NCBI RefSeq assembly: GCF_023006505.1
Contig: NZ_JALBGV010000003.1
Span: forward strand, 1-64,000
Direction: 5' to 3'
Origin: Neorhizobium sp. SHOUNA12A
GTDB taxonomy: Bacteria; Pseudomonadota; Alphaproteobacteria; Rhizobiales; Rhizobiaceae
Length of the DNA stretch: 64,000 bases
The notes beneath the pieces are model-generated. The model saw nothing but the letters and a program-made list of their open reading frames with translations, searched no databases and had not been told where the DNA came from. The translations under genes were made by a program, and so were the position numbers. Positions within the stretch are counted from its first letter, which is position 1. Every line of letters starts with the position of its first letter. This document shows positions 42,286 to 57,553 of this stretch, in pieces.

Positions 42286-42317
42286 CGCAGTGAGATCCTT
42301 TAAATCTATGGAGAAGA

Positions 42318-42338
42318 GGGCGCGGGCCGGCCGCGCCC
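42318..42338. terminator. Strong hairpin between the alginate binding-protein and lyase genes
   Basis: GGGCGCGG (42318-42325) and CCGCGCCC (42331-42338) flank a 5-base loop. In the transcribed (minus) direction TCTTCTCC follows. It lies 8 bases after the binding-protein gene and before the lyase gene, so it probably acts as a partial terminator or mRNA stabiliser. Confidence 0.6.
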
Positions 42339-42345
42339 GGAGGCG

Positions 42346-43914
42346 TCAGTTCTTGCCGTACTGGCGGTCGTAAGCCGTCTGCATGACCTTGATCACCTTG
42401 GAGAGGCCAAGCTGTTCGAGACGGGCCTGGTAGGCGTCCCAGGATGCCGCGACATCTTGTGCGCCCAGCACCCAGGTTTGCTGCATCTCGGTCATGTAGG
42501 TAAGCAGGCTCGGCCAGTACTTGTCGTAGGTGGCACGCTCCTTGGCATCCATGGAGACGCCGGTGAATTCCGGCTGCAGGAGGCCTGGCTCCTTTTTGTA
42601 CATGGCGATGCCGTCGAGGGCCATCTTGTTGGTCCACTGCTCCTCGGACGGATAGGAGGCCCAGTAGCCGCGCGGTACGCCGGCGCCGATCTCCCACATC
42701 TGGGCGTTTACGGGCTTCGGATTGTGCAGCACGCTGTCCTTGTAGAGCGGCTTGCCGTCCTTCATGTCGTAATTGACGCCCTCGATACCCCAGTTGGACA
42801 GGATGCGGCCTTTCTCGGAGAACCAGAAGTCGAAATATTTGATCGTCTCGACCGGATGCTTGTTGCTGTAGGAGATCGCCCATCCGGCCGGCTGCACGGT
42901 GGCGCGGCGGCTGTCTTCGAACCGCTTGCCGGAAACCGTCTTCGGCGGCAGCATCGGCGCAAAATTGATGCCGGGAACGCTGTCCTTCAAAGCTTCGGTA
43001 TAGTTCGAGGTGCTGGCGAACCAGTCATGCGTCATGCCGCCGATATTATTGCCGAGCATGTATTCCCGGTCACGCGCGCCGCGCGTGAAGATCTCGGTAT
43101 CGATCAAGCCTTCCTTGAACCACTGGGCGACTTTGGAAATCCCGGTCTTGTAGTTCGGCGTCGTCCAGGGATGGACGATCTTGCCGTTCTCGACCATGAA
43201 ATCGCCATAACGCTCCGACCCCGAGACGCGGGCATCCCACATGTTGATCAACCGCACGGCCTCGATCGGCTCGCGGGCGAAATACGGAACCTCGTCCTTC
43301 TTGCCGTTGCCGTTCGGGTCCTTCTCGCGAAACGCCTTGAGCACCGTGTAGAGCTCGTCGACATTGCCGGGCTCCTTGAGGCCCAGCTTCTCCAGCCAGT
43401 CCTTGCGGATGAACCAGGCGCGCGAATATTCGCCCTCCGGGACATAAGGGATGAAATAGATATGGCCATCCGGGGCGCTGATCGTCTGGCGCACGACAGG
43501 GTGCTCGTCGAAGAACTTCTTCAGATTGGGGGCATGTTCCGCGATGAGGTCGTCGAGCGGCTGGAATGCTCCTTCCATCCCGTAACGGATGAAATCGTCC
43601 TTCAGGCCGCCGGTGACGTCGCCGCCGACGATGTCCGGCAGGTTCCCGGACGCCATCAACAGATTGAACGCGTCGCGGCTGTTGCTGGTGGCGAGAGACG
43701 CCACGTTCTTGACGTGGATGCCGGTCCATTCGGCCGCCTTCTTCTCCACCGGCCAGTTTTCCGTGTAGACGTATTTGTCACGGAAATGAAAGTGGATCGT
43801 CAGCTCGAGCGGATTGGCGACGATCTTGGTCGAGGCGTCCTGAGCATGGGCTGTACCGACTTGCAGAAAGGCGCATGTGGCCAGCAGGGTAAGGCTTTTT
43901 CGAAAGTGTCTCAT
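42346..43914 (-). CDS. AlgQ-like alginate oligosaccharide-binding protein of ABC transporter
   Basis: A 522-residue secreted binding protein. Sec signal MRHFRKSLTLLATCAFL ends near AHAQ. The fold is of the large AlgQ/LipO type. An EF-hand-like loop DPNGNGKKDE (residues 199-208) has ligand spacing D-N-N-K-D-E, the calcium site I remember in Sphingomonas A1 AlgQ2. Length is close to AlgQ2. It should capture alginate oligomers in the periplasm and pass them to the two permeases encoded upstream. AAGGAGGAG lies before the ATG. A GC-rich hairpin follows the gene. Confidence 0.88.
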   Translation of the reverse strand: MRHFRKSLTLLATCAFLQVGTAHAQDASTKIVANPLELTIHFHFRDKYVYTENWPVEKKAAEWTGIHVKNVASLATSNSRDAFNLLMASGNLPDIVGGDVTGGLKDDFIRYGMEGAFQPLDDLIAEHAPNLKKFFDEHPVVRQTISAPDGHIYFIPYVPEGEYSRAWFIRKDWLEKLGLKEPGNVDELYTVLKAFREKDPNGNGKKDEVPYFAREPIEAVRLINMWDARVSGSERYGDFMVENGKIVHPWTTPNYKTGISKVAQWFKEGLIDTEIFTRGARDREYMLGNNIGGMTHDWFASTSNYTEALKDSVPGINFAPMLPPKTVSGKRFEDSRRATVQPAGWAISYSNKHPVETIKYFDFWFSEKGRILSNWGIEGVNYDMKDGKPLYKDSVLHNPKPVNAQMWEIGAGVPRGYWASYPSEEQWTNKMALDGIAMYKKEPGLLQPEFTGVSMDAKERATYDKYWPSLLTYMTEMQQTWVLGAQDVAASWDAYQARLEQLGLSKVIKVMQTAYDRQYGKN

Positions 43915-43952
43915 CCATTTCTCCTCCTTAAACAGAATTGGCTTTGACGGCG

Positions 43953-44834
43953 TTATTCCTTCACTCCGCCAAGGGTGATGCCCTTGTTGAAGTATTTCTG
44001 GATGCTCGGATAAATGAGCAGGACCGGGATGATCGAGGCGATCATGATCGCTGCCGTCACCGTCTCGAACGAATAGCGCGACGTCATCAGACTGCTGGCG
44101 AACTCGTCATTGGCGCTCAGGTCGACGATGATCCGTTTCAGGTAGAGTTGCAGCGGGATCTTCTCTTCGCCGCGCAGAAGCACCATGGCCCAGAAATAAC
44201 TGTTCCAGCGCGACACGATGCAGAACAGGCCGACCGTGATGATCGCCGGCTTGGAGAGCGGAATGAAGACCTTCCAGAGCAGCTGGAACTCGCTTGCGCC
44301 GTCCATCTTGGCGGCCTCCTCGAAGGATTTCGGGACGGCCTCGAAGAAATTGCGCAGCAGGATGACGTTGAAGGCGTTGCAGGCAAAGCCGATGATCAGC
44401 CCAAAGCGTGAGTCCAGCAGGCCGAGATCGCGCATGTTCAGGAAGAACGGGATCATTCCCGCATTGAACCAGAGCGTGAACGCCACCATCAGGTTCAGGA
44501 ACTTGCGGCCGCGCAGCCGTGAGCGGGACAGGGCATAGGCGCCGGGGATCATGATCGCGAGGCTGACCGCGGTGCCGCCGAACGTGTAGATGAAAGTATT
44601 GCCGTAGGCGATCCAGAACAGCCGGTCCGACAGCACGAACTCGTAGGCCGCAAGCGTCAGGTCCTTCGGGAAAAGGATAACCTGCCCCGAGGTGACCGCG
44701 GCGCCCGAGGAGACCGATACCGCCAGGATGTAAATGAACGGATAGAGCGTCGACAGGACGAAGATGCCGATCAGCGCCGCATTGGCATATCCGAAGATCC
44801 AGTCGCCCCGGGAATAGAGGTTGAAATGTGCCAT
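43953..44834 (-). CDS. Carbohydrate ABC permease, AlgM2/LplC-like
   Basis: A 293-residue six-helix permease of the LplC/AlgM2 group: the N-terminus GDWIFGYANAALIGIFVLSTLYPF, YALSRSRLRGRKFLN and the EAA loop EEAAKMDGASEFQLLWKVFIPLSKPA. It forms a heterodimer with the AlgM1-like product, whose gene ends five bases upstream. Together with the AlgQ-like protein it imports large uronate oligomers. The C-terminus GITLGGVKE is typical for the group. Confidence 0.92.
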   Translation of the reverse strand: MAHFNLYSRGDWIFGYANAALIGIFVLSTLYPFIYILAVSVSSGAAVTSGQVILFPKDLTLAAYEFVLSDRLFWIAYGNTFIYTFGGTAVSLAIMIPGAYALSRSRLRGRKFLNLMVAFTLWFNAGMIPFFLNMRDLGLLDSRFGLIIGFACNAFNVILLRNFFEAVPKSFEEAAKMDGASEFQLLWKVFIPLSKPAIITVGLFCIVSRWNSYFWAMVLLRGEEKIPLQLYLKRIIVDLSANDEFASSLMTSRYSFETVTAAIMIASIIPVLLIYPSIQKYFNKGITLGGVKE

Positions 44835-44838
44835 GACA

Positions 44839-45768
44839 TCACCAGAGCGAGGTTGACGAGACCTTCCGGCTGATCCGGTTGGCCGTGAAGACGAGAGCGA
44901 AGGCGATGACGGCGTTGAACAGGCCGGCCGCGGTTGCGAGGTCGTATTGGGTTCCCTGCAGACCGGTCCGGTAGACGTAGGTCGAGACGACGTCGGCGGT
45001 GCTATAGGTGGCCGGCTGATAGAGAAGGATGATATATTCGAACCCGACCTCGACGAGGTTGCCGATGCGGATGATCAGCATGATGATGATCGTCGGCAGG
45101 ATGCAGGGCAGCGTGATCCGCCATATCATCTGCCACCGCGAGGCGCCGTCCACCCGCGCCGACTCGTAGAGCGTCGGGCTGACGCCGGCGATCGCGGCCA
45201 GGTAGACGATGGATTCGAAGCCCGCCTCTTTCCAGATGTTGGAGCCGATGAACACCGACCGGAACCATTCCGGCTGGGTGAGGAAATAGACCGGTTCGAA
45301 CCCCAGGCTGGATAGGATGAGATTGATCACGCCCGTCGTGGGGGACAGAAGATTGATGACGATGCCGGCGACGATCACCACCGAGATAAAGTGCGGCAGG
45401 TAAACGATCGTCTGGGAGAACCGTCGGCCGAACTCGTTCTGCAGTTCGTTGAACATCAGCGCCAGGATGATCGGCACCGGGAAAGCGAAGATCAGCCCGA
45501 GCCCGCTGATGGTGATCGTGTTGATGAAGGCGCGGATGAAGATCTGGTCTTCGAGAAGGGTGCGGAAGTTCTCAAGCCCGACCCAGGGACTGCCGGCGAT
45601 GCCCCGGAAGGGGCTGAAGTCCTTGAAGGCTATCTGCAGCCCTTCCATCGGCTTGTAGAGAAACAGCAGAAACCAGACGATCATCGGCAAGGCGAGCAGA
45701 TAGAGTTGCCAGTCCCGGCGAAGATCTTCGCCTATGCCTTTCAGATAGTGGGTCATCCTCGATGTCAT
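44839..45768 (-). CDS. Carbohydrate ABC permease, AlgM1/LplB-like
   Basis: A 309-residue permease of the LplB/AlgM1 group: QLYLLALPMIVWFLLFLYKPM in the first helix, GLQIAFKDFSPF.GI..SPWVGL and EAA loop YESARVDGASRWQMIWRITLP. I chose the ATG at 45768 because GAGG lies six bases upstream; ATGs at 45771 and 45756 are alternatives. It begins eight bases after the ATPase gene ends and forms the channel with the AlgM2-like product. Confidence 0.92.
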   Translation of the reverse strand: MTSRMTHYLKGIGEDLRRDWQLYLLALPMIVWFLLFLYKPMEGLQIAFKDFSPFRGIAGSPWVGLENFRTLLEDQIFIRAFINTITISGLGLIFAFPVPIILALMFNELQNEFGRRFSQTIVYLPHFISVVIVAGIVINLLSPTTGVINLILSSLGFEPVYFLTQPEWFRSVFIGSNIWKEAGFESIVYLAAIAGVSPTLYESARVDGASRWQMIWRITLPCILPTIIIMLIIRIGNLVEVGFEYIILLYQPATYSTADVVSTYVYRTGLQGTQYDLATAAGLFNAVIAFALVFTANRISRKVSSTSLW

Positions 45769-45776
45769 CATCCACC

Positions 45777-46892
45777 TCACGAACGGCCATTGACGGCCCG
45801 GCCGGTTTCCAGGTCGAAAATGTGAAGCCTGTCGGTCGGCATCAGCAGTTGCCGGACCTCGGCGAGCTTCTGGACATCGGACGGCGTGTCGACCTTGGCG
45901 ACGACCGGCTGGCCGGCGATCCGGCAATGCAGCAGGGCTTCGGAACCAAGCGGCTCGACGAGATCGACTGTCGTCGGGATGTTCTGGACATCCGCGACCG
46001 TGCCCGTCTCGATCTCCAGGTGCTCCGGACGGAGACCAACGAGAATGCGCTGGCCCGCGTCAAGGGCGGCGGCGCTCCAGGCGGGGAGCGTCAGTTGCGC
46101 CGGATTGTCATCGGTCCCGTCAATCCGTGCGACGGCTGCGCCGTTCGCAGCGGTCACGGTCGCTTTCAGCAGGTTCATGGGTGGTGAACCGAGGAAGCTC
46201 GCGACGAAGGCATTCGCCGGATTGAGAAAAAGCTCCATGGGAGAGCCCACCTGCTCGACGCGGCCGCTATTCATCACCACGATACGGTCGGCCAGTGTCA
46301 TGGCCTCCACCTGGTCGTGGGTCACGTAGATGCTGGTGACACCCATGCGGTTGTGCAGCCGGCGGATTTCGGCGCGCATCTGGGTGCGCAACTTGGCGTC
46401 CAGGTTCGAAAGCGGTTCGTCGAAGAGGAAGACCCTTGGCTTGCGCACGATCGCGCGTCCCATCGCCACCCGCTGCCTTTGACCGCCGGAAAGGTCCGCG
46501 GGCTTGCGCTTCAGGTAGGGCGTCAGATCGAGGATCGTCGCCGCCTCGCTGACAGCTGCCTCAACCACTGCATTCTTCTCGCCGCGGACGCGCAGGCCGA
46601 AGGCGATATTTTCCGCGACATTGAGATGCGGGTAAAGCGCATAATTCTGGAAGACCATGGCGACATCGCGATCCTTGGGCGCCATGCGGTTGACGACGCG
46701 CCCACCGATGGAGATCGTGCCGCCGGAGATATCCTCAAGCCCGGCGACCATGCGCAGCGTCGTCGATTTGCCGCAGCCCGACGGGCCGACCAGGACGACG
46801 AATTCTCCCTGCACCACCGACAGATCGATAGAATGCACGACTTCGAGTGCGCCGTAGCGTTTCACTACGTCGTTCAATTCCACTGCAGACAT
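45777..46892 (-). CDS. ABC ATP-binding protein, AlgS/MalK/UgpC type
   Basis: A 371-residue ATPase: Walker A GPSGCGKST, Q-loop FQNYALYPH, signature LSGGQRQRV, Walker B VFLFDEPLSNLDA, His switch THDQ, and a C-terminal TOBE/OB regulatory domain (about 240-371) with GLRPEHLEI. It powers the alginate oligosaccharide importer. Some such ATPases serve several sugar importers. It follows the GntR regulator by 27 bases and is the first transport gene of the operon. Confidence 0.94.
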   Translation of the reverse strand: MSAVELNDVVKRYGALEVVHSIDLSVVQGEFVVLVGPSGCGKSTTLRMVAGLEDISGGTISIGGRVVNRMAPKDRDVAMVFQNYALYPHLNVAENIAFGLRVRGEKNAVVEAAVSEAATILDLTPYLKRKPADLSGGQRQRVAMGRAIVRKPRVFLFDEPLSNLDAKLRTQMRAEIRRLHNRMGVTSIYVTHDQVEAMTLADRIVVMNSGRVEQVGSPMELFLNPANAFVASFLGSPPMNLLKATVTAANGAAVARIDGTDDNPAQLTLPAWSAAALDAGQRILVGLRPEHLEIETGTVADVQNIPTTVDLVEPLGSEALLHCRIAGQPVVAKVDTPSDVQKLAEVRQLLMPTDRLHIFDLETGRAVNGRS

Positions 46893-46919: not shown

Positions 46920-47702
46920 TCAGGTCAGACTGCGCCGCGGCCTCCGTTTTTCCGTCGTAGTTGCATTGATGGATTCGATGTAGCTCCACAGCTTCGGATC
47001 TTTTGAAAGCTCCGTGATCTTGCTTTCCAACGAACCCAGATGCCGGGTCATCGCCGCCACCGCGGCATCCGGGGACGCAGCCCCGATGGCCTCGACAATG
47101 GCACGATGTTCGTCGATGACCTCGCCGGTGCGGCGCACTCCGAACACCATCTTCAGATGACGCATTCGGTCGATTTCCCCCTTCGCCTGATTGACGAAAG
47201 ACCAGACGCCGCTGAGGCGCGCCGCCGTAAAGATCGCCTTGTGAAAGCTCTCGTCCAGTTCGAAGAAGCTGGTGTAGTCCTCGCTCGCGACGGCCTCGAT
47301 CTGCTGGTTGAGCAGGAGTTCCAGGCGGCCGAGATCCTCGAACGTGTGGCGCTTGGCCGCTTCCGCTGCAGCTCCCGCCTCCAGGCGGAACCGGATAAAG
47401 CAGGCCTCGATGTAACGCTGCACCTCGATCGTCGCGACGAACGTGCCCCCTTGCGGGACGACCTTGATCAGGCCCTCTTCCGAAAGACGGATGATTGCCT
47501 CGCGCACCGGCGTCTTGCTGACATGCAGGATCGCGGCGACCTCCTTCTCGGGAAGGGCGCGGCCGGGAAGCAGCCTGACTTCGACGATAAGCTGCCGCAG
47601 CAGGCGATAGACCTTGTTGGTCGTATTGCCCGTGCCTTCCATCAGGAACGGCCGGAGCAATTCCTCAAGGGGAAGAGCAGGAATCTGCACGACTTCAGAC
47701 AT
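46920..47702 (-). CDS. GntR family (FCD-type) regulator of the alginate operon
   Basis: A 260-residue regulator with a GntR winged helix (VYRLLRQLIVEVRLLPG, KEVAAILHVSKTPVREAIIRL, GLIKVVPQGGTFVA) and a C-terminal FCD helical domain (LEAGAAAEAAKRHTFEDLGRLE; ligand-site His in FHKAIF and another near EHRAI). FCD domains bind organic acids through a metal. It is transcribed ahead of the importer and lyase genes, so it most likely represses the operon until an alginate-derived acid appears; inference. Tandem repeats lie just upstream. Confidence 0.92.
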   Translation of the reverse strand: MSEVVQIPALPLEELLRPFLMEGTGNTTNKVYRLLRQLIVEVRLLPGRALPEKEVAAILHVSKTPVREAIIRLSEEGLIKVVPQGGTFVATIEVQRYIEACFIRFRLEAGAAAEAAKRHTFEDLGRLELLLNQQIEAVASEDYTSFFELDESFHKAIFTAARLSGVWSFVNQAKGEIDRMRHLKMVFGVRRTGEVIDEHRAIVEAIGAASPDAAVAAMTRHLGSLESKITELSKDPKLWSYIESINATTTEKRRPRRSLT

Positions 47703-47921: not shown

Positions 47922-49079
47922 CTATGACCCCGGGAGCGTCTGCTCGAATGAGTGCCTGGCGAGACCTGTCAGAACACATCGCGGGCTGGTCGTCAGGCGG
48001 ACACCTCCATCCGCTCCGACAGCCACGGTCTCGCTGAAACCAAGCCCCTGCGCCGTCGCATAAAGATGGAAGACCATGCCTTCTTCCAGAACCCAGTTCG
48101 ATGTCGGCAGGAAAACCCTCGAAAAGTCGCTGGTGCGCGGCGTGCGGGTATAGAGGCCCAATGTATAAGCCGTCACGTTCTCGTATGTCGGCCGCAGATG
48201 CGCGTTAAGCGCGCCCTGCCGCATGATGGCATCGATATCGCGAGCGACGGCGCCCGCCTTCATCGCGGCGATCTGGCGATCCTGCAGGGCGACGAGCTTT
48301 TCGGCAGCCGCATTGAGGGCGACCGACGGCTCCCCGACCACGACCGGCCGCATCACGCGGGCGCCATAGTTTCCAACGCGCGGGATGAGTTCGACATGCA
48401 GGATGTCGCCCTGCATGATCGTTTCGGTCTTGAACGCACCATGCAGAAACTCGTGGCTGCCGATGGCCTTGACGACGGGGCCGACTTCGCCGGTATCGGC
48501 ACCTTCACGCAGGAAGACCTGCGAGGCGATCGCCGCCGCATCGCGGGTGGTCATTCCCGGACGGGCCTGCCGTGCGATCTCCAGCATCGCCTTGTCGGCG
48601 ATTGCGGACGCCTGACGGAGTACGGCAATCTCATCCTCCGACTTGACCCAACGCAGGCTGTCGCTGAGCCCCGGCATGGGAATGAAGCGCGCATCCGGCA
48701 GCAGCGCCGAAAGCCGAGTGAACGTCGCAGCGCTCATGCTATAGGAATTGGTATCGAGGCCGATGCGCGCTCCAGCAAATCGGCGCTCGCAGATGCTTGC
48801 AGCGACGGCCGCTTGCGCGTCGTCGGTATCGGCGAAACCGACCACGTCGGAAATCCAGCTCTTTTCCCGGCACGGCGCCTCGTCCAGCGCCCGCAGCGTG
48901 AACCAGGCATCGCCCTCGCGCGGCAAAAAGGCGGCGCGGTACATGGTTTCGGAGACGGTGTAGCCGGTCAGCCAGGCCAGCAACTCGCCGCTATCGACGA
49001 GCAGCAGATCGACGCCGGCGGATGCCATGGCGTCCCGGGCGCATGCGATACGGCGATCGAATTCCGCCCGGGAGAACAT
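47922..49079 (-). CDS. M24 'pita-bread' protein without the usual metal ligands
   Basis: A 385-residue protein with a creatinase/prolidase N-terminal domain (1-145) and a pita-bread C-terminal domain (150-385). The five metal ligands of M24 peptidases are mostly absent: the first Asp is Glu 230 (DILHVEL), the second is Arg 241 (GARVMR), the His region reads AYTLGLY (303-310), the first Glu is Tyr 340 (GMVFHLY). Only the last Glu (350) is kept. Creatinase and ectoine hydrolase show that this fold can cleave C-N bonds without metal, with His; His 209 and 213 are candidates. Start 49079 leaves two bases after the M20-like gene. Last gene of the second peptide-type ABC operon. Confidence 0.85.
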   Translation of the reverse strand: MFSRAEFDRRIACARDAMASAGVDLLLVDSGELLAWLTGYTVSETMYRAAFLPREGDAWFTLRALDEAPCREKSWISDVVGFADTDDAQAAVAASICERRFAGARIGLDTNSYSMSAATFTRLSALLPDARFIPMPGLSDSLRWVKSEDEIAVLRQASAIADKAMLEIARQARPGMTTRDAAAIASQVFLREGADTGEVGPVVKAIGSHEFLHGAFKTETIMQGDILHVELIPRVGNYGARVMRPVVVGEPSVALNAAAEKLVALQDRQIAAMKAGAVARDIDAIMRQGALNAHLRPTYENVTAYTLGLYTRTPRTSDFSRVFLPTSNWVLEEGMVFHLYATAQGLGFSETVAVGADGGVRLTTSPRCVLTGLARHSFEQTLPGS

Positions 49080-49081
49080 GG

Positions 49082-50308
49082 TTAGGCAACCTCGCAGATA
49101 TCGAGGATAGTCAGCATGTAGACGCGGATCATGTCGAGATAGTCGACGATGTCGACACGCTCGTCGGGCATGGTGTTGTAACGGCCGCCGGGGCCGCACA
49201 CGATACCTTCCATGCCGAGCTCCTTGTAGAGATGGCCGGCATCGGTGCCATAGAAGCGGGTCGGCGTGATCGCGCCGGTCGGCTGTTTTTCGCCCCGCAC
49301 GGCTTCATAGGCTGCGTTGATCGATTTGACGATGCGCGATGTCGGCGAGACCTCGAAGGGCGGCATCAGCGGGCGGCCCTCGATCAGCTCCGGAACCAGC
49401 TTTGCCTTGAGCCCGGGGAAGCGGCCTTCGAGGGCCACCAGTTCCTTTTCGAGATCGGCCAGCACGCCCTCCTGCGTCTGCCCCGGCGCATAACGGCACG
49501 AGCCCTTGAGACGGACGAAATCCGCGACCTGCGGCGGGCGCCATTCTTCCAGACCGCGCCCGAGCGCACCATGGACGACGCCGACATGGCCGCGGTTGAT
49601 CGACCGGTGCACGTCGCTCCTGGCGCCGCTGAAGGTCATGGCGTTGATGCGCGGGATGATATCGCAAGCCGCGGCGATCGCGTCGACAGATTCCTCGCGC
49701 TTGGAGAGGTGGCGCGTGTCGCCGGTCAATTCGATGACGTAGCTGAGCGCTGCCGCGTGCATGGTGACGGCGACGAGATCGCTCGGCTCGCTGTTGATGA
49801 AATAGTCCGCCTTGACGCCGTGCTTGATCGCGGCAAGCGTGCCGACGCCGCCCTGCAGTTCGCCGACCACGAAGGTCAGGACAACGTCGCCCTTGAGCTT
49901 GACGCCGGCATCGAGCAGCGTCTTGACTGCGCAGAAATAGGCGGCATCGCCGGCCTTCATGTTCGACACGCCGATACCGTAGATGAACTTGTCATCGACG
50001 AGGCCGGCATAGGGATCGACCGTCCAGCCTTCGGTAACCGGATTGGTGTCGAGATGGCCGTTGAACAGCAGGCTCTTGCCGCCGCCGGTACCCTTGAGGC
50101 GTCCGATCGTGTTGAAGCGGCGGCCTTCGTCGAACGGCTGCAATTCGGCTTCGACCCCGATCTTTTCCAGTTCGCCGGCCATGTAGCGCGCAAGATCACG
50201 CTCGCCATCGGTTTCCGAATGGCTCTTGTGCTGGACCATCTTCGACAGGAAGTCGAGGCAGGCCTTTTCGTCGATCCGATCCACCAGGGATTTCGGGTCC
50301 ATTGTCAT
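49082..50308 (-). CDS. M20/ArgE-DapE fold protein with degenerate metal site
   Basis: A 408-residue protein of the M20 fold. NGHLDTNP keeps His 85 and Asp 87. Other key positions differ: the bridging Asp of the D-M-K loop is Asn 116 (GVSNMKAG), the metal Glu after the catalytic Glu 150 is Leu 151 (VVGELQGG), and the C-terminal metal His is Thr 379 (GGRYNTMPDE). The EPS Glu 174 is kept. The dimer-domain His 200 (TRHLSKREESVDAI) is present. A normal dinuclear zinc site seems impossible, so activity is altered or lost. The neighbouring M24-like protein is degenerate in the same way. It is cytoplasmic. Confidence 0.87.
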   Translation of the reverse strand: MTMDPKSLVDRIDEKACLDFLSKMVQHKSHSETDGERDLARYMAGELEKIGVEAELQPFDEGRRFNTIGRLKGTGGGKSLLFNGHLDTNPVTEGWTVDPYAGLVDDKFIYGIGVSNMKAGDAAYFCAVKTLLDAGVKLKGDVVLTFVVGELQGGVGTLAAIKHGVKADYFINSEPSDLVAVTMHAAALSYVIELTGDTRHLSKREESVDAIAAACDIIPRINAMTFSGARSDVHRSINRGHVGVVHGALGRGLEEWRPPQVADFVRLKGSCRYAPGQTQEGVLADLEKELVALEGRFPGLKAKLVPELIEGRPLMPPFEVSPTSRIVKSINAAYEAVRGEKQPTGAITPTRFYGTDAGHLYKELGMEGIVCGPGGRYNTMPDERVDIVDYLDMIRVYMLTILDICEVA

Positions 50309-50324
50309 ACTCCTTGATGCATTG

Positions 50325-51956
50325 TCATAGGTATTGGCCCGCCGCGCGTGGCACCGCCTCGATCAGTCGGCGGGTATATTCAGCGCGATCCTGGCTATCG
50401 ATGTCTGCTGCCGGTGCGATCTCGACGAGATTGCCGCGATACATCACGGCGATCCGGTGGGCGATCTGGCGGATAAGGTTGAGGTCGTGGGTAATGAACA
50501 GGTAGGCGGTGCCGCTGGCCTTCTGCAGTTCCAGCAGCAGCTGGACGATGGACGCCTGCACCGACACGTCGAGCGCGGAAGTGATCTCGTCGCAGATCAC
50601 CAATTTCGGCTTGGAGGCAAATGCACGGGCGATCGCCACGCGCTGTTTCTCGCCGCCCGACAGCTGATGCGGATACCGCTGGGCATGGGTGCGCGGCAGG
50701 CGCACCTGCTCCAGCATGTCGCCGACCTTCTGGTCGAGATGAGACGCGTCCCCGAACAGCTTCAGCGGCCGCGACAGGATCTCGCTGATCTTCTGGCGGG
50801 GATTGAGCGAGGCGTCGGGGTGCTGGAAGATGATCTGCACGTCCTTGCGATAGGCATTGTCCATGTCGCCAAGGCTCCTGATCTCGCGACCGTCGAACCA
50901 GATCTTGCCCTCGAAGCGGTTGAGACCGGTCATCGCCTTCGCCAGCGTCGACTTGCCGGAGCCGGATTCGCCGACGATGCCGAGAATTTCTCCCGGATTG
51001 ATGCTGAGGCTGATGGCATTGTTGCCGGCAACGCGTTCGGTGGCGCGGCCGGTCAGCGCCGCCAGAAACGGCTTGCGGCCATAATGGACACTGACGTTTT
51101 CCACACGCACCAGCGGCTTGTCCGTGTCAACGACAATGTCGCCGACCAGCCTGCGGGCCGGATCGGGAACCGCCGCGATCAGTTCGCGGGTATAATCCTG
51201 CTGCGGATTGGCAAAGATATCACGCACCGCGCCCTGCTCGACGATGTCGCCACGACGGATGACGGCGACGCGGCTGGCCGTGCGCGACACCAGCGCCAGA
51301 TCGTGGGAAATGTAGAGCGAGGCGACACCGGTCTCAGCCTGCAGTTCCACGAACAGGTCGAGGATCTGGCATGAGGTGATGACGTCGAGCGCCGTCGTCG
51401 GTTCGTCGAAGATGATGCATTCGGGATTGCACGCAAACGCCGATGCGATGACGACGCGCTGCTTCTCGCCGCCCGATGCCTCGTGCGGCATGCGATTCAT
51501 CATCGAGGCCGGCGTCTTCAGGCCGACGCGATCCAGCATCGCCTCGCCTTCCTTCCAGGCCTGCTGTCGTGTCAGCCCGCGGTGACGGACCAGCACCTCG
51601 GCGAGCTGGGTGCCGAGCGACAGGGTCGGGTTGAGCGACGTGCTCGGATCCTGGAACACCATGCTGATCCGCCGGCCGCGAAAGGCCTCGATCTGGGCAT
51701 CGGTCTTTTCGAGCAGGTTCTCGCCGCTCAGCAGGATGCGGCCGCCCGGTTCGCGGGCGTTCTTGGGCAGATAGCGCATGATCGACCAGGCAAGCGAGGT
51801 CTTGCCGGAACCGGATTCGCCGACCAGGCCGAGGATTTCGCCTCGGTGGACGGAAAGGTCGATGTTCTTGAGCGCATGGAAGACGCCGGTGGCCGTGTCG
51901 TAATCCAACGAGTAATTCTCGATCGCGAGAACCGGAGTTTCTGGTTTTGTCGTCAT
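50325..51956 (-). CDS. ABC ATP-binding protein, fused DppD-DppF type
   Basis: A 543-residue protein with two ATPase domains. First: [30 protein letters not shown]. Second: [30 protein letters not shown]. In the second Walker B the residue after Asp-Glu is Ile rather than Pro or Ser. It powers the permease pair encoded next to it. I chose the ATG at 51956 (GAGG eight bases upstream), ten bases after the DppC-like stop; an ATG at 51989 would overlap that gene. Same gene design as the ATPase at 31203. Confidence 0.93.
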   Translation of the reverse strand: MTTKPETPVLAIENYSLDYDTATGVFHALKNIDLSVHRGEILGLVGESGSGKTSLAWSIMRYLPKNAREPGGRILLSGENLLEKTDAQIEAFRGRRISMVFQDPSTSLNPTLSLGTQLAEVLVRHRGLTRQQAWKEGEAMLDRVGLKTPASMMNRMPHEASGGEKQRVVIASAFACNPECIIFDEPTTALDVITSCQILDLFVELQAETGVASLYISHDLALVSRTASRVAVIRRGDIVEQGAVRDIFANPQQDYTRELIAAVPDPARRLVGDIVVDTDKPLVRVENVSVHYGRKPFLAALTGRATERVAGNNAISLSINPGEILGIVGESGSGKSTLAKAMTGLNRFEGKIWFDGREIRSLGDMDNAYRKDVQIIFQHPDASLNPRQKISEILSRPLKLFGDASHLDQKVGDMLEQVRLPRTHAQRYPHQLSGGEKQRVAIARAFASKPKLVICDEITSALDVSVQASIVQLLLELQKASGTAYLFITHDLNLIRQIAHRIAVMYRGNLVEIAPAADIDSQDRAEYTRRLIEAVPRAAGQYL

Positions 51957-51966
51957 GATGGCGGCC

Positions 51967-52791
51967 TCAGGTTCGCGGATTGAGGGCATCGCGAAGACCG
52001 TCGCCCAGAAGGTTGAAGCCGACGGCGACGACGGCGATCGCCACGCTCGGCCAGATCAGGATGCCGGCACTCAGGTGCATGTAGCGGCGCGCCTCCGAGA
52101 CCATCAGGCCCCATTCGGCCGCCGGCGGCTGCGCGCCGAGGCCGAGAAAACTCAGCGTCGCAAACAGCATGACCGCAAAGGAGATGCGGATGGTCATCTC
52201 GACGATGATCGGCGCGATGACGTTCGGCAGCATTTCCCGCAGGATGATGTAGGCGGAGCTTTCGCCACGGGCGACCGCCGCATTGACGTAATCCTGCTTG
52301 CGCACCGACAGCGCGACGCTGCGGGTGATGCGGGCCATGCCCGGCGCAAACGCGATGGCAACGGCGATCAGCGCGTTGACCGTGCTGGACCCCAGAAGGT
52401 TGACCACCAGAAGTGCAAACAGCAGGCTCGGGATCGACATGACGGCATCGATGGTGCGCATGATCAATTCGTCCGCCCGGCCGCCGAGGAAGGCGGAGGT
52501 GGTGCCGACGAAGGCGCCGAGCAGCGTACCGGCGATGGTTGCGAGCACGGCCATGACCACGGTGGCGCGGGCGCCGATCAGCAGGCGGCTGAAGATGTCG
52601 CGGCCATATTGATCCGTTCCCAGCCAATAGGCGGCGCTCGGCCCCTTGTATCGCGCAAGCGGTGCAAGCGTTTCCGGGTCGTGCGGCGCGAGCATTGGTC
52701 CGAACAGCACGACCACCAGCACCAGCAGGACAAGCAACATACCGATCGCGCCCTGCGGCGTGCGCAGCAGGCGTTTGATGAAATCAGTCAT
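51967..52791 (-). CDS. ABC permease, DppC-like
   Basis: A 274-residue permease: WLGTDQYGRDIFSRLLIGARATV after the first helix, and EAA loop AAVARGESSAYIILREMLPN. Helices and C-terminus DGLRDALNPR fit DppC. I chose the ATG at 52791, which overlaps the DppB-like gene by eight bases. It pairs with that protein to import the ligand of the binding protein at 53789. Confidence 0.93.
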   Translation of the reverse strand: MTDFIKRLLRTPQGAIGMLLVLLVLVVVLFGPMLAPHDPETLAPLARYKGPSAAYWLGTDQYGRDIFSRLLIGARATVVMAVLATIAGTLLGAFVGTTSAFLGGRADELIMRTIDAVMSIPSLLFALLVVNLLGSSTVNALIAVAIAFAPGMARITRSVALSVRKQDYVNAAVARGESSAYIILREMLPNVIAPIIVEMTIRISFAVMLFATLSFLGLGAQPPAAEWGLMVSEARRYMHLSAGILIWPSVAIAVVAVGFNLLGDGLRDALNPRT

Positions 52792-53731
52792 ACTGGATCC
52801 TCTTGTCGAGCCAGGCATAGAGGATGTCGGCGATGAAATTGACGATCGAATAGGTGGCCGCCATGATCAGCACGCCGGCCTGGATGGCCGGCAGGTCACG
52901 CGCCTGGATCGCCACGATCAGCTGGCGGCCGATGCCGGGAATGGCAAAGATCTCTTCGACGACAATGACGCCACCGAGCAGGTAACCGACATCGAGCGCA
53001 ACGATGGTAATGGTTGGCAACAGCGCATTGCGCAGTGCGTGGCGACGAAGGACCTGTCCGCGCGAAATTCCCTTCAGCCGGGCGGCACGGATATAATCGG
53101 TGTGCAGCACGTCGACGAGTTCCGAGCGAACCATCCGCGAGACGTGGGCGATCAGGATCACCGAAATGACGCAGACCGGCAGGACCAGATGCGCGATGCC
53201 GCTCGAGAAATTCTCGGTGAGCGGCACATAACCGGTCGGCGGCAACCATTTCATCAGGTCGGCGAAGACGAGGACGGCGACGGTCGCCGTGACGAATTCG
53301 GGAAGCGCCACGCCGGCGTAGGAGATCAGGCTGACGACCATGTCGGCGATCTTGCCGCGACGGACGGCAGCGATGATGCCGAGCGGAATGGCGAGAACCA
53401 GCATCAGGCCGATCGACAGGAAGGCCAAAAGCAGCGAACGCCCAAGCGCCTCGAACATCACCGGGCCGACAGGCTGGCCGGTGCGCAGCGAAGTGCCGAG
53501 ATCGCCCTGCAGCACGTGGCCGAGCCATATGGCATATTGCTGCCACACGGGAGCGTTGAGCCCCATGTTTTGACGCAGCGCAGCGAGAGCGTCCTGTGTC
53601 GCATTCTCACCCAGCATCATGACGGCGGCATCGGCCGGCAGGATCTGGGTGATGGCGAAAACGATGAGCGATACGATGAAGAGCGTATAGACGATCATCA
53701 CCAGCCGCTTGGCTATATAATTCGGGGACAC
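52784..53731 (-). CDS. ABC permease, DppB-like
   Basis: A 315-residue permease: N-terminus YIAKRLVMIVYTLFIVSLIVFAI, AVWQQY-type periplasmic segment and EAA loop AARLKGISRGQVLRRHALRNALLP. It is the first permease gene after the binding protein, separated from it by 57 bases that hold an 11-bp hairpin. Confidence 0.93.
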   Translation of the reverse strand: MSPNYIAKRLVMIVYTLFIVSLIVFAITQILPADAAVMMLGENATQDALAALRQNMGLNAPVWQQYAIWLGHVLQGDLGTSLRTGQPVGPVMFEALGRSLLLAFLSIGLMLVLAIPLGIIAAVRRGKIADMVVSLISYAGVALPEFVTATVAVLVFADLMKWLPPTGYVPLTENFSSGIAHLVLPVCVISVILIAHVSRMVRSELVDVLHTDYIRAARLKGISRGQVLRRHALRNALLPTITIVALDVGYLLGGVIVVEEIFAIPGIGRQLIVAIQARDLPAIQAGVLIMAATYSIVNFIADILYAWLDKRIQYD

Positions 53732-53788: not shown

Positions 53789-55339
53789 TTAGCCGCGCTT
53801 GGGCGCCTTGTCGGTTAGGGAGGCGTAGTCGAGGCGGAAGACCGAGGCGCGCGGATGCGCTTCGTAACCCTTCACCCAGCTGCGCTTGGCCGACAGCACG
53901 TCGAAGAAGGACGGGATAATCGAGGGTACTTCCTCGTTCATCAGTTCCTGAGCCTTGGTGTAAAGCTCGGTGCGCTTGGCTGCGTCGATCGTGCCGCGAG
54001 CTTCGGCGACCAGGGCGTCGAAGGCCTTGTTGTTCCAGCGCGTCTCGTTCCAGGAGGCATCCGAGGTATAGAGAAGCTTGAAGATTCCGTCCGGGGTCGG
54101 CTGCATGTTGTAGAAGCCGACATAGAAGCTGCCCTTCTTCCACACCTGCTCCAGATAGGTGGCGTGCGGCATCGTCTGGACGTTGATAGTAATGCCCGCT
54201 TCCTTGGCCATTTCCTTGAGGGCGACGGCAAGCTGGGTGCGCACCGCTGGGCGGTCGGAGGCGATGAGCGTTGCTTGCAGGCCATTCGGGAAACCGGCTT
54301 CCGCAAGCAGCTTTTTGGCTTCGGCGATATTCTTCTGGCGCTGTTTGGCAGCCTTGAAGAACTGGTAGGACGGGTTCAGCGGCGTGTCGTTGCCCGGCGT
54401 GCCAAAACCTTCTGTGACGAAGTTGACCATCGCCTCGCGATCGACCGTGAGCGCGATCGCACGGCGGACGCGCGCGTCGTTGAACGGCGCGGTGTCGCAA
54501 CCGAAGTTGATGTTGCAGAACTGGCCGGACGGCGTGCGCAAGACCTCGACGCCGTCATTGCCGTCAAGCCGCAGGTATTCGGTCGGCTGCAGCGTCGAGA
54601 TGATGTCGACATTGCCGGCGATCATCGCCGAGCCTTCGGCGGAGATATCCGGGAATACCTGGACTTCGATACGATCGAGATAAGGGCGTGCCGGGTCGTA
54701 ATAGTTCGGGTTGCGTTCGACGACGATCAGACGGTCCGGCTCGTAGGATACCAGCTTGAACGGGCCGGTGCCGACAGCCTTGGTGGCAAGACTCTTGAGG
54801 TCGCCGGTGGCGATCGAGGCGGGAATGATGCGAGCGTTGGTGTAGGCCATGGCGACCGGCAGGTCGGCATAGGCGCCGGAGAGCTTGAACAGCACCGTTG
54901 TATCGTCGACGGCGACGATGTCGGAGATCGGGCCGACATTGTTGCGGCCGGGCGACGCGGTTGCCGGATCGAGGATTGCCTTGAAGGTGGCGACGACGTC
55001 CTTTGCCGTGAACGGCGAGCCGTCATGGAAGGTCACGCCCTTGCGCAGCTTGAACGTCCATTCGGTCAGGCCAGCGTTGGGCGTCCAGCTTTCGGCCAGG
55101 TCCGGCTCGACCGACATGTCGACCTTCAGGCGTGTCAGGTTGCTATAGAGCAGTTCGGTCACCAGGTATTCCGGGTTGACGCGGGTCAAAAGCGGATGGA
55201 TGACGCTTGCAGCTTGGTCGACGGAGATGCGCAGCGTGCCGCCCTTGGCCGGCTTTGCGGTCTGCGCCAGGCCAAGCGCCGGTGCAGCAAAGACGGCGGC
55301 GGTGCCGGCGAGGAAGAGGCGACGTTTCATTTCCAGCAT
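53789..55339 (-). CDS. ABC substrate-binding protein, SBP family 5
   Basis: A 516-residue family-5 protein with Sec signal (KRRLFLAGTAAVFAAPALG, cut near LAQ). Core: LLYSNLTRLKVDMSVEPDLAESW, TEWTFKLRKGVTFHDGSPFTAKDV, VEVLRTPSGQFCNINFG and NKAFDALVAEARG. It captures a peptide-like or other ligand for the permeases encoded downstream. I kept the ATG at 55339; one at 55330 is an alternative. The hydrolases at both ends of the operon suggest an amide or N-acyl compound as ligand (inference). Confidence 0.92.
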   Translation of the reverse strand: MLEMKRRLFLAGTAAVFAAPALGLAQTAKPAKGGTLRISVDQAASVIHPLLTRVNPEYLVTELLYSNLTRLKVDMSVEPDLAESWTPNAGLTEWTFKLRKGVTFHDGSPFTAKDVVATFKAILDPATASPGRNNVGPISDIVAVDDTTVLFKLSGAYADLPVAMAYTNARIIPASIATGDLKSLATKAVGTGPFKLVSYEPDRLIVVERNPNYYDPARPYLDRIEVQVFPDISAEGSAMIAGNVDIISTLQPTEYLRLDGNDGVEVLRTPSGQFCNINFGCDTAPFNDARVRRAIALTVDREAMVNFVTEGFGTPGNDTPLNPSYQFFKAAKQRQKNIAEAKKLLAEAGFPNGLQATLIASDRPAVRTQLAVALKEMAKEAGITINVQTMPHATYLEQVWKKGSFYVGFYNMQPTPDGIFKLLYTSDASWNETRWNNKAFDALVAEARGTIDAAKRTELYTKAQELMNEEVPSIIPSFFDVLSAKRSWVKGYEAHPRASVFRLDYASLTDKAPKRG

Positions 55340-55358: not shown

Positions 55359-56672
55359 TCAGGCGCGGTTTTCAGGAATGGCGTCGGCGGCAAAGTCCGC
55401 CGCGAGATAGGCCAGTATGCTTTTCGCCAGGGCGATGATGTCCTGGCGGGTGGTATGCTCTTCAGGACTGTGGATGCAGCTTTCCGGGCGGCCGAGCCCG
55501 CCCAGCAGCACCTCCTGTGCAAAGCCGGACTTCTGCACGTAGCCGAAATCGGAGCAGCTTGCGGCGCCCCATTTTTGAAAGTCTTCCGGCTTGTAGCCGA
55601 AGCCCAGCGACAGCGCCTCTTGCCAGCGTGGCCAATGCGGACCTTCCGGATCGCCCGTCGGGATGAGGTGTCCGACCAGATCAATTTCGAGCTTCAGCCC
55701 GGTGCCGGCAACGCTGTCGCGGATCACTCTTTCGATCTCGGCGCGCGCGATCTCATAGTTTTCTTCCGGAGCATAACGTCGGCTCACGAGAATCTTGATC
55801 TCCGCCGGCACCTGTCCGCCGGCGGTGCCGCCATTCACGGCCGAAATCGAAAGCTGCGGTCGCAGCGGACCTGACGCGTGCGGCGGCGGCGCCAGCGCGG
55901 ATGCCCGGCTGGCCACGTCCGGCTTCAAGACCATCAAGGCATTGAGCAAGGGCAAGGCGCCTTCGATAGCATTGATGCCAGCGCCGGTGCGATTGCCTTC
56001 GCCTGCATGAACGGCGTGCCCCCTGATCGTCACCTGCAGATGGAAGACACCGAAGCAGCCAGCCCATATACGCGGCGCCGCGGACCCGTTGAAATTGAGG
56101 ATATGACCTTTCAACTTCCCCTGCTCCGCCAGATAGCGAATACCGGGATACAGGCCCCCTTCCTCGTCGGTGCAGAGGAGCAGCATCGGATCGTAATAAA
56201 GAGGCAGGCCGCATTTTTTGGCAGCCCGCAACGCCAGCAGGGTTGCCGCGATCGTGCCCTTCATGTCCGCTGCGCCGAGCCCGAACAGATCGTCACCCTC
56301 GACGGTCAGTTTCAAAGGATCGCGTGCCCAACCGGGCGCGGCCGGGACCGTGTCGACGTGATAATAAAGACCGCAGACGGGCTTTCCCGTTTCGCGGGTG
56401 GCAATCAGGTTGGTTCGCTCGCCGGATGCCGGCCCACCGGCCACGTGCCAAAGATCACGCGGCACGACGACCCGCTCGAACTCAAACCCCAGGGGCGAAA
56501 GGAGTTCGGCCATCAGATCGGCAAAAGCGTCATAGCCCAGACCCGGCGGGAATGAGGTGTCAACTTCGATCATCCGGGCCAGATCATCGACAGCAACCTC
56601 GACATCCCGCTCAATCGCTGCCATGGCAGGTCCAAGGATCTGTTGCGAAGAAGCTGGCTGCGGCGTGTTCAT
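55359..56672 (-). CDS. M20 family peptidase/deacylase (nearly canonical)
   Basis: A 437-residue M20 hydrolase with most catalytic residues in place: His 105 and Asp 107 (YYHVDTVP), Asp 136 (GAADMKG), Glu 170 and Glu 171 (TDEEGG) and a C-terminal His in CIHSPEEHT. One odd site: the Glu of the usual E-P-T loop reads Asn 195 (ILNFNGS). It resembles the ArgE/DapE branch, cleaving N-acyl or peptide bonds with two zinc ions. I chose the ATG at 56672 (GAGGA seven bases upstream). It is the first gene of the ABC operon and divergent from the HutC-type regulator. Confidence 0.9.
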   Translation of the reverse strand: MNTPQPASSQQILGPAMAAIERDVEVAVDDLARMIEVDTSFPPGLGYDAFADLMAELLSPLGFEFERVVVPRDLWHVAGGPASGERTNLIATRETGKPVCGLYYHVDTVPAAPGWARDPLKLTVEGDDLFGLGAADMKGTIAATLLALRAAKKCGLPLYYDPMLLLCTDEEGGLYPGIRYLAEQGKLKGHILNFNGSAAPRIWAGCFGVFHLQVTIRGHAVHAGEGNRTGAGINAIEGALPLLNALMVLKPDVASRASALAPPPHASGPLRPQLSISAVNGGTAGGQVPAEIKILVSRRYAPEENYEIARAEIERVIRDSVAGTGLKLEIDLVGHLIPTGDPEGPHWPRWQEALSLGFGYKPEDFQKWGAASCSDFGYVQKSGFAQEVLLGGLGRPESCIHSPEEHTTRQDIIALAKSILAYLAADFAADAIPENRA

Positions 56673-56788: not shown

Positions 56789-57553
56789 TTGCCGGAACTG
56801 CCCAATAATTCATCAGGAGTGATCAAACTGACGGAACTGTCGTTGCCGCTCTATGAAGTGGTCAAACGACAGATCACCGAAGCGATCATGCTTGGCAAAC
56901 TGGAACCGGGTGCGGTTCTGCCGAGCGAAGTGGCGCTGTCGCAAACCTATGGCGTGGCCGTGGGCACCATCCGGCGGGCGCTGATGGATCTCACCAATGA
57001 CGGCCTTCTCAGCCGCCGTCGCAAGACCGGCACAGTCGTGACCGGCCGCAAGCCGCAGCACAGCCTGCGCCTGTTTTTTCAGTATTTTCGACTGCACGGT
57101 CTGGATGGTTCGCTCAGCAAATCGGTCACGAAGGTGACTTCGCTCGACAGGAGCATTGCTTCCGCTGCCGATGCGCGAAAACTTCAGATCGACGAGGGAT
57201 CGCCGATCGTCACCTTCCACAGGGTGCGTTACGTCGACGAGCGGCCGATCATGCACGAGACACTGACGCTTTCCCGCGAACGGGTCCCGGACTTCCCCGA
57301 AAGGCCGGAGGAAATCCCTCAGCTCTTCTACCTGCATCTGCTGGAAAATTATGGGATCCGCATTTCGGCCATACGCGAGCAGATCGGTGCCGATCTTGCG
57401 AACGATTCCGATGCCCGGTGGCTGGATCTGGCTCTACCCGCTGCCGTTCTCACAATCGACGAGGTCGCCTATGATCAACTGGCGGTTCCGGTTCTCATCT
57501 CCGCCCATCGCGCGACGACCGCACACCATCGGTATGTCAACGAGGTTCAATGA
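56789..57553 (+). CDS. GntR family (HutC/UTRA-type) regulator
   Basis: A 254-residue regulator: GntR HTH (LYEVVKRQITEAIMLGKLEPG, LPSEVALSQTYGVAVGTIRRA, LSRRRKTGTVV) and a C-terminal UTRA ligand domain (about 85-250; PIVTFHRVRYVDERPIMHET). No suitable ATG exists near; the TTG at 56789 has AGAGG seven bases upstream. It is divergent from the second peptide-type ABC operon, so it very likely represses it in the absence of substrate. The ligand may be the imported compound. Confidence 0.9.
   Translation: MPELPNNSSGVIKLTELSLPLYEVVKRQITEAIMLGKLEPGAVLPSEVALSQTYGVAVGTIRRALMDLTNDGLLSRRRKTGTVVTGRKPQHSLRLFFQYFRLHGLDGSLSKSVTKVTSLDRSIASAADARKLQIDEGSPIVTFHRVRYVDERPIMHETLTLSRERVPDFPERPEEIPQLFYLHLLENYGIRISAIREQIGADLANDSDARWLDLALPAAVLTIDEVAYDQLAVPVLISAHRATTAHHRYVNEVQ

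Follow-up and report, generated by a model that had tools for sequence, protein, structure and literature searches.

A conserved importer operon combining an M20-fold protein that seems to keep half a metal site with an M24-fold protein that lacks the usual metal ligands

Creatinase (creatine amidinohydrolase) is an enzyme of the M24 fold that works without metal. A paper on LmaPA2G4 is said to describe a non-peptidase M24 homologue, and a JBC study of EutD reportedly describes a covalent intermediate and no metal. DoeA is a demonstrated catalyst of the M24 fold, with a partner, DoeB, that is akin to M14-family aspartoacylases (PMC3187862). Neither member of the EutD-EutE pair can be dispensed with, and a transient interaction between them is presumed (PMC8739950). 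For the M20 fold, a 2022 paper (PMC9814641) reports that 5-nitroanthranilate aminohydrolase relies on Mn2+ or Zn2+. Here we describe an operon of Neorhizobium in which an M24-fold protein without metal ligands (M24) is encoded next to an M20-fold protein with half a metal site (M20b). Both site types are known already; their combination in one operon appears to be new, and no description of the operon or of the M20b-M24 pair was found in the open-licence literature searched.

The operon lies in the window (the whole stretch of 64,000 nucleotides that was analysed), and its genes are listed in Table 1. The sequence-only reading had described two clean, full-length frames, separated by two bases, as the last genes of a peptide-type ABC operon, and this description stands: M24 (385 aa) is a full-length open frame from an ATG at 49079 to a stop ending at 47922, two bases separate that ATG from the stop of M20b (408 aa), and the Pfam domains are Peptidase_M24 with Creatinase_N for M24 and Peptidase_M20 with M20_dimer for M20b. 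The first gene of the operon, which encodes a second M20-fold protein (M20a), was absent from that account; its start was placed by judgement at the ATG at 56672 in preference to the one at 56813.

Table 1. Genes of the operon and its divergent regulator in the window
Feature	Coordinates	Strand	Evidence
M24-fold protein without metal ligands (DoeA/EutD-like), 385 aa	47922..49079	-	Pfam, ligand columns, Foldseek
M20b, M20-fold protein with half a metal site, 408 aa	49082..50308	-	Pfam, ligand columns, Foldseek
Fused double ATP-binding subunit, peptide-type ABC importer	50325..51989	-	
ABC permease, DppC/OppC type	51967..52818	-	
ABC permease, DppB/OppB type	52784..53731	-	
Substrate-binding protein, SBP_bac_5	53789..55339	-	Pfam
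M20a, second M20-fold hydrolase, first operon gene	55359..56672	-	Pfam M20; position conserved among relatives
GntR/UTRA regulator, divergent from M20a	56789..57553	+	Pfam GntR and UTRA

The same gene order, with a divergent GntR/UTRA regulator followed by M20a, the binding protein, two permeases, the fused ATPase, M20b and M24, is found in both Alpha- and Gammaproteobacteria; we refer to this arrangement as type 1. An orthologue of the GntR/UTRA gene adjoins the operon in 25 of the 26 type-1 loci longer than 10 kb that were examined, the remaining one (L056) being a contig that starts at M20a, and in Variovorax the orthologue lies downstream of the operon instead. An FCD-type GntR gene adjoining M24 (46920-47702) was considered as the operon's regulator and rejected, having no relative in the type-1 loci; distant relatives of it (26-31%) adjoin a second operon type described below. 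The importer resembles those of the Opp/Dpp type with binding proteins like AgaA in its subunit set and binding-protein family, and the PDB relatives of the SBP_bac_5 protein include peptide-binding proteins as well as AgaA; it differs in that neither the binding protein nor the permeases reach the cutoff of any NCBIfam transporter model. Beyond M24, positions 39961-46892 of the minus strand hold a heparinase-like ORF (by eye) accompanied by a dedicated binding protein, a pair of permeases and an ATPase, which may be a separate uptake system for polysaccharide oligomers.

The ligand columns of M24 were set by alignment with three solved prolidase/aminopeptidase chains. At the five prolidase-type columns, whose occupants in the Pyrococcus prolidase we take to be D209, D220, H284, E313 and E327, the protein has E230, R241, Y305, Y340 and S349, and none of the five ligands is kept. 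Glu230, Arg241 and Tyr340 had already been placed at ligand positions, correctly as the alignment shows, although that account of a three-ligand loss overlooked Tyr305 in the His column and Ser349 in the column of the last Glu. E230, R241 and Y305 are identical in all 19 M24 rows with at least 50% identity, the Neorhizobium copy included, and Glu at the first Asp (D209) column together with Tyr at the His (H284) column occurs in 29 of 36 M24 rows, an annotated Shinella DoeA among them. Nine M24 paralogues were found in the Neorhizobium genome itself, six of which aligned as rows (L007 gave none); these six (L002-L006 and L008) keep between zero and two of the five ligands. In the tree of M24 proteins the branch joining the metal-less rows has a support of 81 and is drawn open, so a single loss is not shown.

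Where M24 falls among described enzymes depends on the search used: DoeA leads with the NCBIfam models and with Foldseek, and not with phmmer. The two best NCBIfam models are both DoeA (125.8 bits against a cutoff of 575, and 109.3 against 613). Foldseek ranks 6twk, a substrate-bound EutD/DoeA structure, first and 2zsg second, an order that is soft given the pLDDT of 63.8 of the query model. When phmmer was run against the PDB, 2zsg (9e-21) and other prolidases outranked DoeA (3e-13), to which M24 is about 26% identical. Creatinase shares the M24 fold and is present in the Foldseek list, but it ranks below DoeA and is a weaker match in sequence (E 6e-5). Together with the metal-less fold and the Glu and Tyr that M24 has in common with DoeA/EutD, there are likenesses in gene neighbourhood, since in the DoeA cluster, too, a second hydrolase gene is adjacent and an ABC importer is encoded; the differences are that the partner of M24 is an M20-fold protein, not a DoeB, and that the importer is of the peptide type, not Ehu. 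By its residues M24 would fit metal-free hydrolysis of the ectoine-hydrolase kind.

In M20b, the dinuclear ligand set of M20 enzymes is incomplete. H85, E174 and the general base E150 are kept, and N116, L151 and T379 stand at replaced ligand positions, as the sequence-only reading had stated and the alignment confirms. Across all 32 rows, down to about 69% identity, H85, D87, E150 (in the general-base column) and E174 are invariant and N116 occupies the bridging-Asp column; L151 and T379 are found at the lost ligand columns in 13 of 13 M20b rows. The 32 rows exclude L064_19934 and L093_5878, which at 22% and 25% identity are ordinary M20 paralogues. In the terms of carboxypeptidase G2, the protein has lost the metal-1 side and kept the general base along with the metal-2 side. 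The proposal that both neighbours had lost their metal sites is accordingly right for M24 and overstated for M20b, which retains H85, D87, E150 and E174.

The site of M20b resembles that of 5-nitroanthranilate aminohydrolase from Bradyrhizobium, in which His, Asp, Asn, Glu followed by Ile/Leu, and the second Glu are kept and the terminal His is lost, and the same pattern occurs in three of three plasmid relatives of that enzyme. BLASTP aligns the two with 40% identity over 138 columns that include the kept active-site residues; the differences are an insertion after the Glu in the aminohydrolase and a C-terminal half without notable BLASTP alignment to M20b. Foldseek ranks 1, 2 and 4-13 are entries of this enzyme and rank 3 is 3pfo (the order is soft, the query model having a pLDDT of 51.9); going by their titles, the PDB entries of the aminohydrolase comprise Mn2+/product and Zn2+/intermediate complexes. 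With phmmer, DapE (2e-18) comes slightly ahead of the aminohydrolase (7e-17). The two group together in the tree with an SH-aLRT of 84, on branches flagged as long, and it is likely, as far as alignment and tree can tell, that they share descent apart from other M20s. In a set of 40 M20 rows, Asn at column 116 is confined to M20b (13 rows) and the aminohydrolase group (4 rows), and two further M20s (L105 and L107) are without the metal-1 side but keep the Asp; because of this group and these two proteins, M20s with a predicted half site are seen to be a recurrent type. Three relatives of the aminohydrolase (L119, L120 and L121) are encoded in clusters with genes for an LLM flavin oxidoreductase and for isochorismatase-family or cysteine hydrolases.

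Since the residue set of M20b recurs in an enzyme solved with Mn and Zn, M20b is likelier to be a single-metal enzyme than a metal-free one. The earlier suggestion of metal-free chemistry keeps its force for M24, as a candidate hydrolase of the ectoine-hydrolase kind, and is not supported for M20b, whose residues match those of a metal-bound enzyme. The structure models of the two proteins (pLDDT 51.9 for M20b and 63.8 for M24) are too weak to define site geometry.

The M20a protein shows the complementary pattern. In each of 25 rows an Asn (Asn195, numbered from 56672) occupies the column of the metal-2 carboxylate, and the same 25 keep four other site residues, namely the first His, the first Asp, the bridging Asp and the terminal His. 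The Glu base is found in 24 of them; the one left is a broken copy that is gapped at this column. The second Glu is present in six of six rows. The metal site of M20a, as predicted from these columns, is the mirror image of that of M20b.

To define how widely the pair occurs, every genome whose M20b reached 69% identity was counted once, giving 28: 19 of 60 relatives, the Neorhizobium genome included, and nine more among 394 genomes of the family. A phylum-wide sample of 398 genomes had two with M20b, both already among the 28. The gene adjoining M20b is this M24 in 17 genomes, a different, DoeA-like M24 in seven, and no M24 in four (adjacency was scored by tblastn on loci with at least 1.5 kb downstream, so that an M24 scored as adjacent is not necessarily intact). 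In those four genomes no close M24 is present elsewhere, the best match having an E value of 9e-16. Taken from the other side, M24 at 75% identity or more occurs in 13 genomes and lies beside M20b in all 13. The two genes are usually together but do not always co-occur. The layout of two hydrolase genes is similar to that of EutD and EutE, but the M20b-M24 linkage is not constant, with 4 of 28 genomes lacking an adjacent M24.

The type-1 set is found on named plasmids, among them those of Agrobacterium vitis, Terrarubrum, Pantoea dispersa, Sodalis praecaptivus and Rhizobium ruizarguesonis; in the last of these, M20a and the ATPase are split over frames, and the Pantoea and Sodalis copies add ddpX. 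Between Pantoea and Neorhizobium, M20b is 70% identical and M24 51%. The transporter and M20b occur without an adjacent M24 in Variovorax, Paracoccus, G095, G023, G034 and G178; no M24 match at an E value of 1e-15 was obtained in the Variovorax and Paracoccus records searched, and no M20a was found in the stretch of Variovorax read. A metal-less M24 replaces M20a in a second operon type (L084, L085, L088, L089 and L090), where another stands at the end and M20b is about 70% identical; the end M24 of this type has lost its ligands in the five genomes read, out of the seven. One genome (G014) has a second-type operon without M20b between the ATPase and the end M24, and a type-1 M20b elsewhere, a single case in keeping with a shared function. 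On a Microvirga plasmid (L071), an M20b of 78% identity with no importer beside it is preceded by an amino-acid-type binding protein and followed by a transposase (both by eye), and the same record has an M24 of 47% identity about 35 kb from M20b. Long frames in G330 and G096 (842 and 820 aa) were considered as M20b-M24 fusions and rejected, the second M24 having its own overlapping frame.

M20b is the constant part of the operon; M24 varies and is replaced or lost. For this reason the ligand losses are not one paired event, as had been supposed: the loss in M24 is common to DoeA and to M24 paralogues in other contexts, and that in M20b to orthologues in operons without M24. Because M24 is not adjacent in 4 of the 28 genomes and its match in L057 is cut to 56 aa, M24 is not essential to the route. 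Other damaged copies include L059, in which M20a and the ATPase are split, L096, in which the ATPase and one permease are split, and L073, in which the entire operon is fragmented.

The dN/dS ratios against the Neorhizobium copy were 0.03-0.07 for M20b and 0.12-0.21 for M24 (seven comparisons each). Judged by these estimates, M24 is under purifying selection where compared, and M20b evolves slowly. Gene decay as the cause of the ligand losses was rejected on the low ratios and the intact frames, and the conservation of the residues across rows together with dN/dS indicates that the ligand replacements are due neither to chance nor to decay.

We favour the reading, with a probability of roughly 0.6, that the operon serves the import and stepwise hydrolysis of a small amide-, amidine- or peptide-like compound, with M20b as the core enzyme and M24 as a metal-free one. 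The GntR/UTRA protein would control a peptide-type ABC importer and the cytosolic hydrolases. M20b would hold one divalent metal through H85, N116 and E174, use E150 as its general base, and cut an acyl-amide or amine bond with a site of the 5-nitroanthranilate aminohydrolase type. M24 would hydrolyse without metal in the manner of DoeA/EutD, E230 replacing a metal ligand as base or nucleophile with Y305 alongside; it would precede or follow M20b in acting on one class of compounds, much as EutD works with EutE. M20a, and DdpX in Pantoea and Sodalis, may carry out further or alternative cleavages. Of the new catabolic route envisaged earlier, an unassigned role in uptake and catabolism is the likeliest part to hold, and a guanidino substrate is without specific support; the relatives of the binding protein, the AgaA literature, DdpX and the Microvirga context were followed as substrate clues and gave no result.

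Several other readings draw on the same observations. That M20b and M24 are both metal-free and act together is what the complete absence of ligands in M24, the loss of three of the five canonical ligand residues in M20b and the presence of some M24 beside M20b in 24 of 28 genomes might suggest, yet it is made unlikely by the four residues of M20b that are invariant in 32 of 32 rows and recur in a relative whose structures contain Mn and Zn, and by the occurrence of M20b without an adjacent M24. A role for one or both as pseudo-enzymes of the importer, binding substrate or regulating rather than catalysing, would account for the lost ligands, and no activity is known for either protein; it sits poorly with the fixed E150, H85 and E174, with the low dN/dS of M20b, and with the top Foldseek matches of the two proteins, which are active enzymes, and we regard it as quite improbable. 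DoeA, itself a metal-less M24, is moreover a demonstrated catalyst (PMC3187862).

The two readings that assign the operon to a familiar pathway fare less well. An ordinary dipeptide-scavenging operon, with hydrolases that are still metallopeptidases through ligands supplied by other residues, would agree with the peptide-type importer, with DdpX in the Pantoea and Sodalis copies and with the peptidases that are the best phmmer matches of M24, but the E, R, Y, Y and S that the alignment places at its ligand columns make this very unlikely. Least credible, to the point of being nearly dismissed, is an ectoine route with M24 as the ectoine hydrolase: the best NCBIfam models and the residue pattern are those of DoeA, but the scores lie far below the cutoffs, a search of the operon loci for DoeB matched only the Shinella control locus (L069), the importer is of the peptide type, and the same genome encodes a separate and much closer DoeA relative (L003) that groups with the annotated Shinella DoeA at an SH-aLRT of 100. 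By the tests made here, M24 is to all appearances not an ectoine hydrolase.

A bolder and unlikely reading is that the operon encodes a degradation pathway not described so far, in which all three hydrolases, with dismantled metal sites (M24 metal-free, M20b with the metal-2 side only and M20a with the metal-1 side only), pass intermediates on as EutD and EutE do and form a metal-sparing module. Were this true, the module would be one spread by plasmids among plant-associated bacteria, and the second operon type would fill the M24 slot with a distant metal-less M24.

Current annotations name M24 a member of the Xaa-Pro peptidase family and the M20 proteins M20/M25/M40 metallo-hydrolases; the residue evidence contradicts the former and qualifies the latter. 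The anatomy of the operon, its conservation, the residue patterns and the family assignments are established here, and the metal content, reaction types, order of steps and regulation are predicted from them. With its two types, which have one M20 in common and different M24s, the operon offers a clean test of how peptidase folds turn into small-molecule hydrolases through the loss of metal ligands. It marks a nutrient that is apparently accessible to legume symbionts, Agrobacterium vitis, Pantoea and Sodalis alike.
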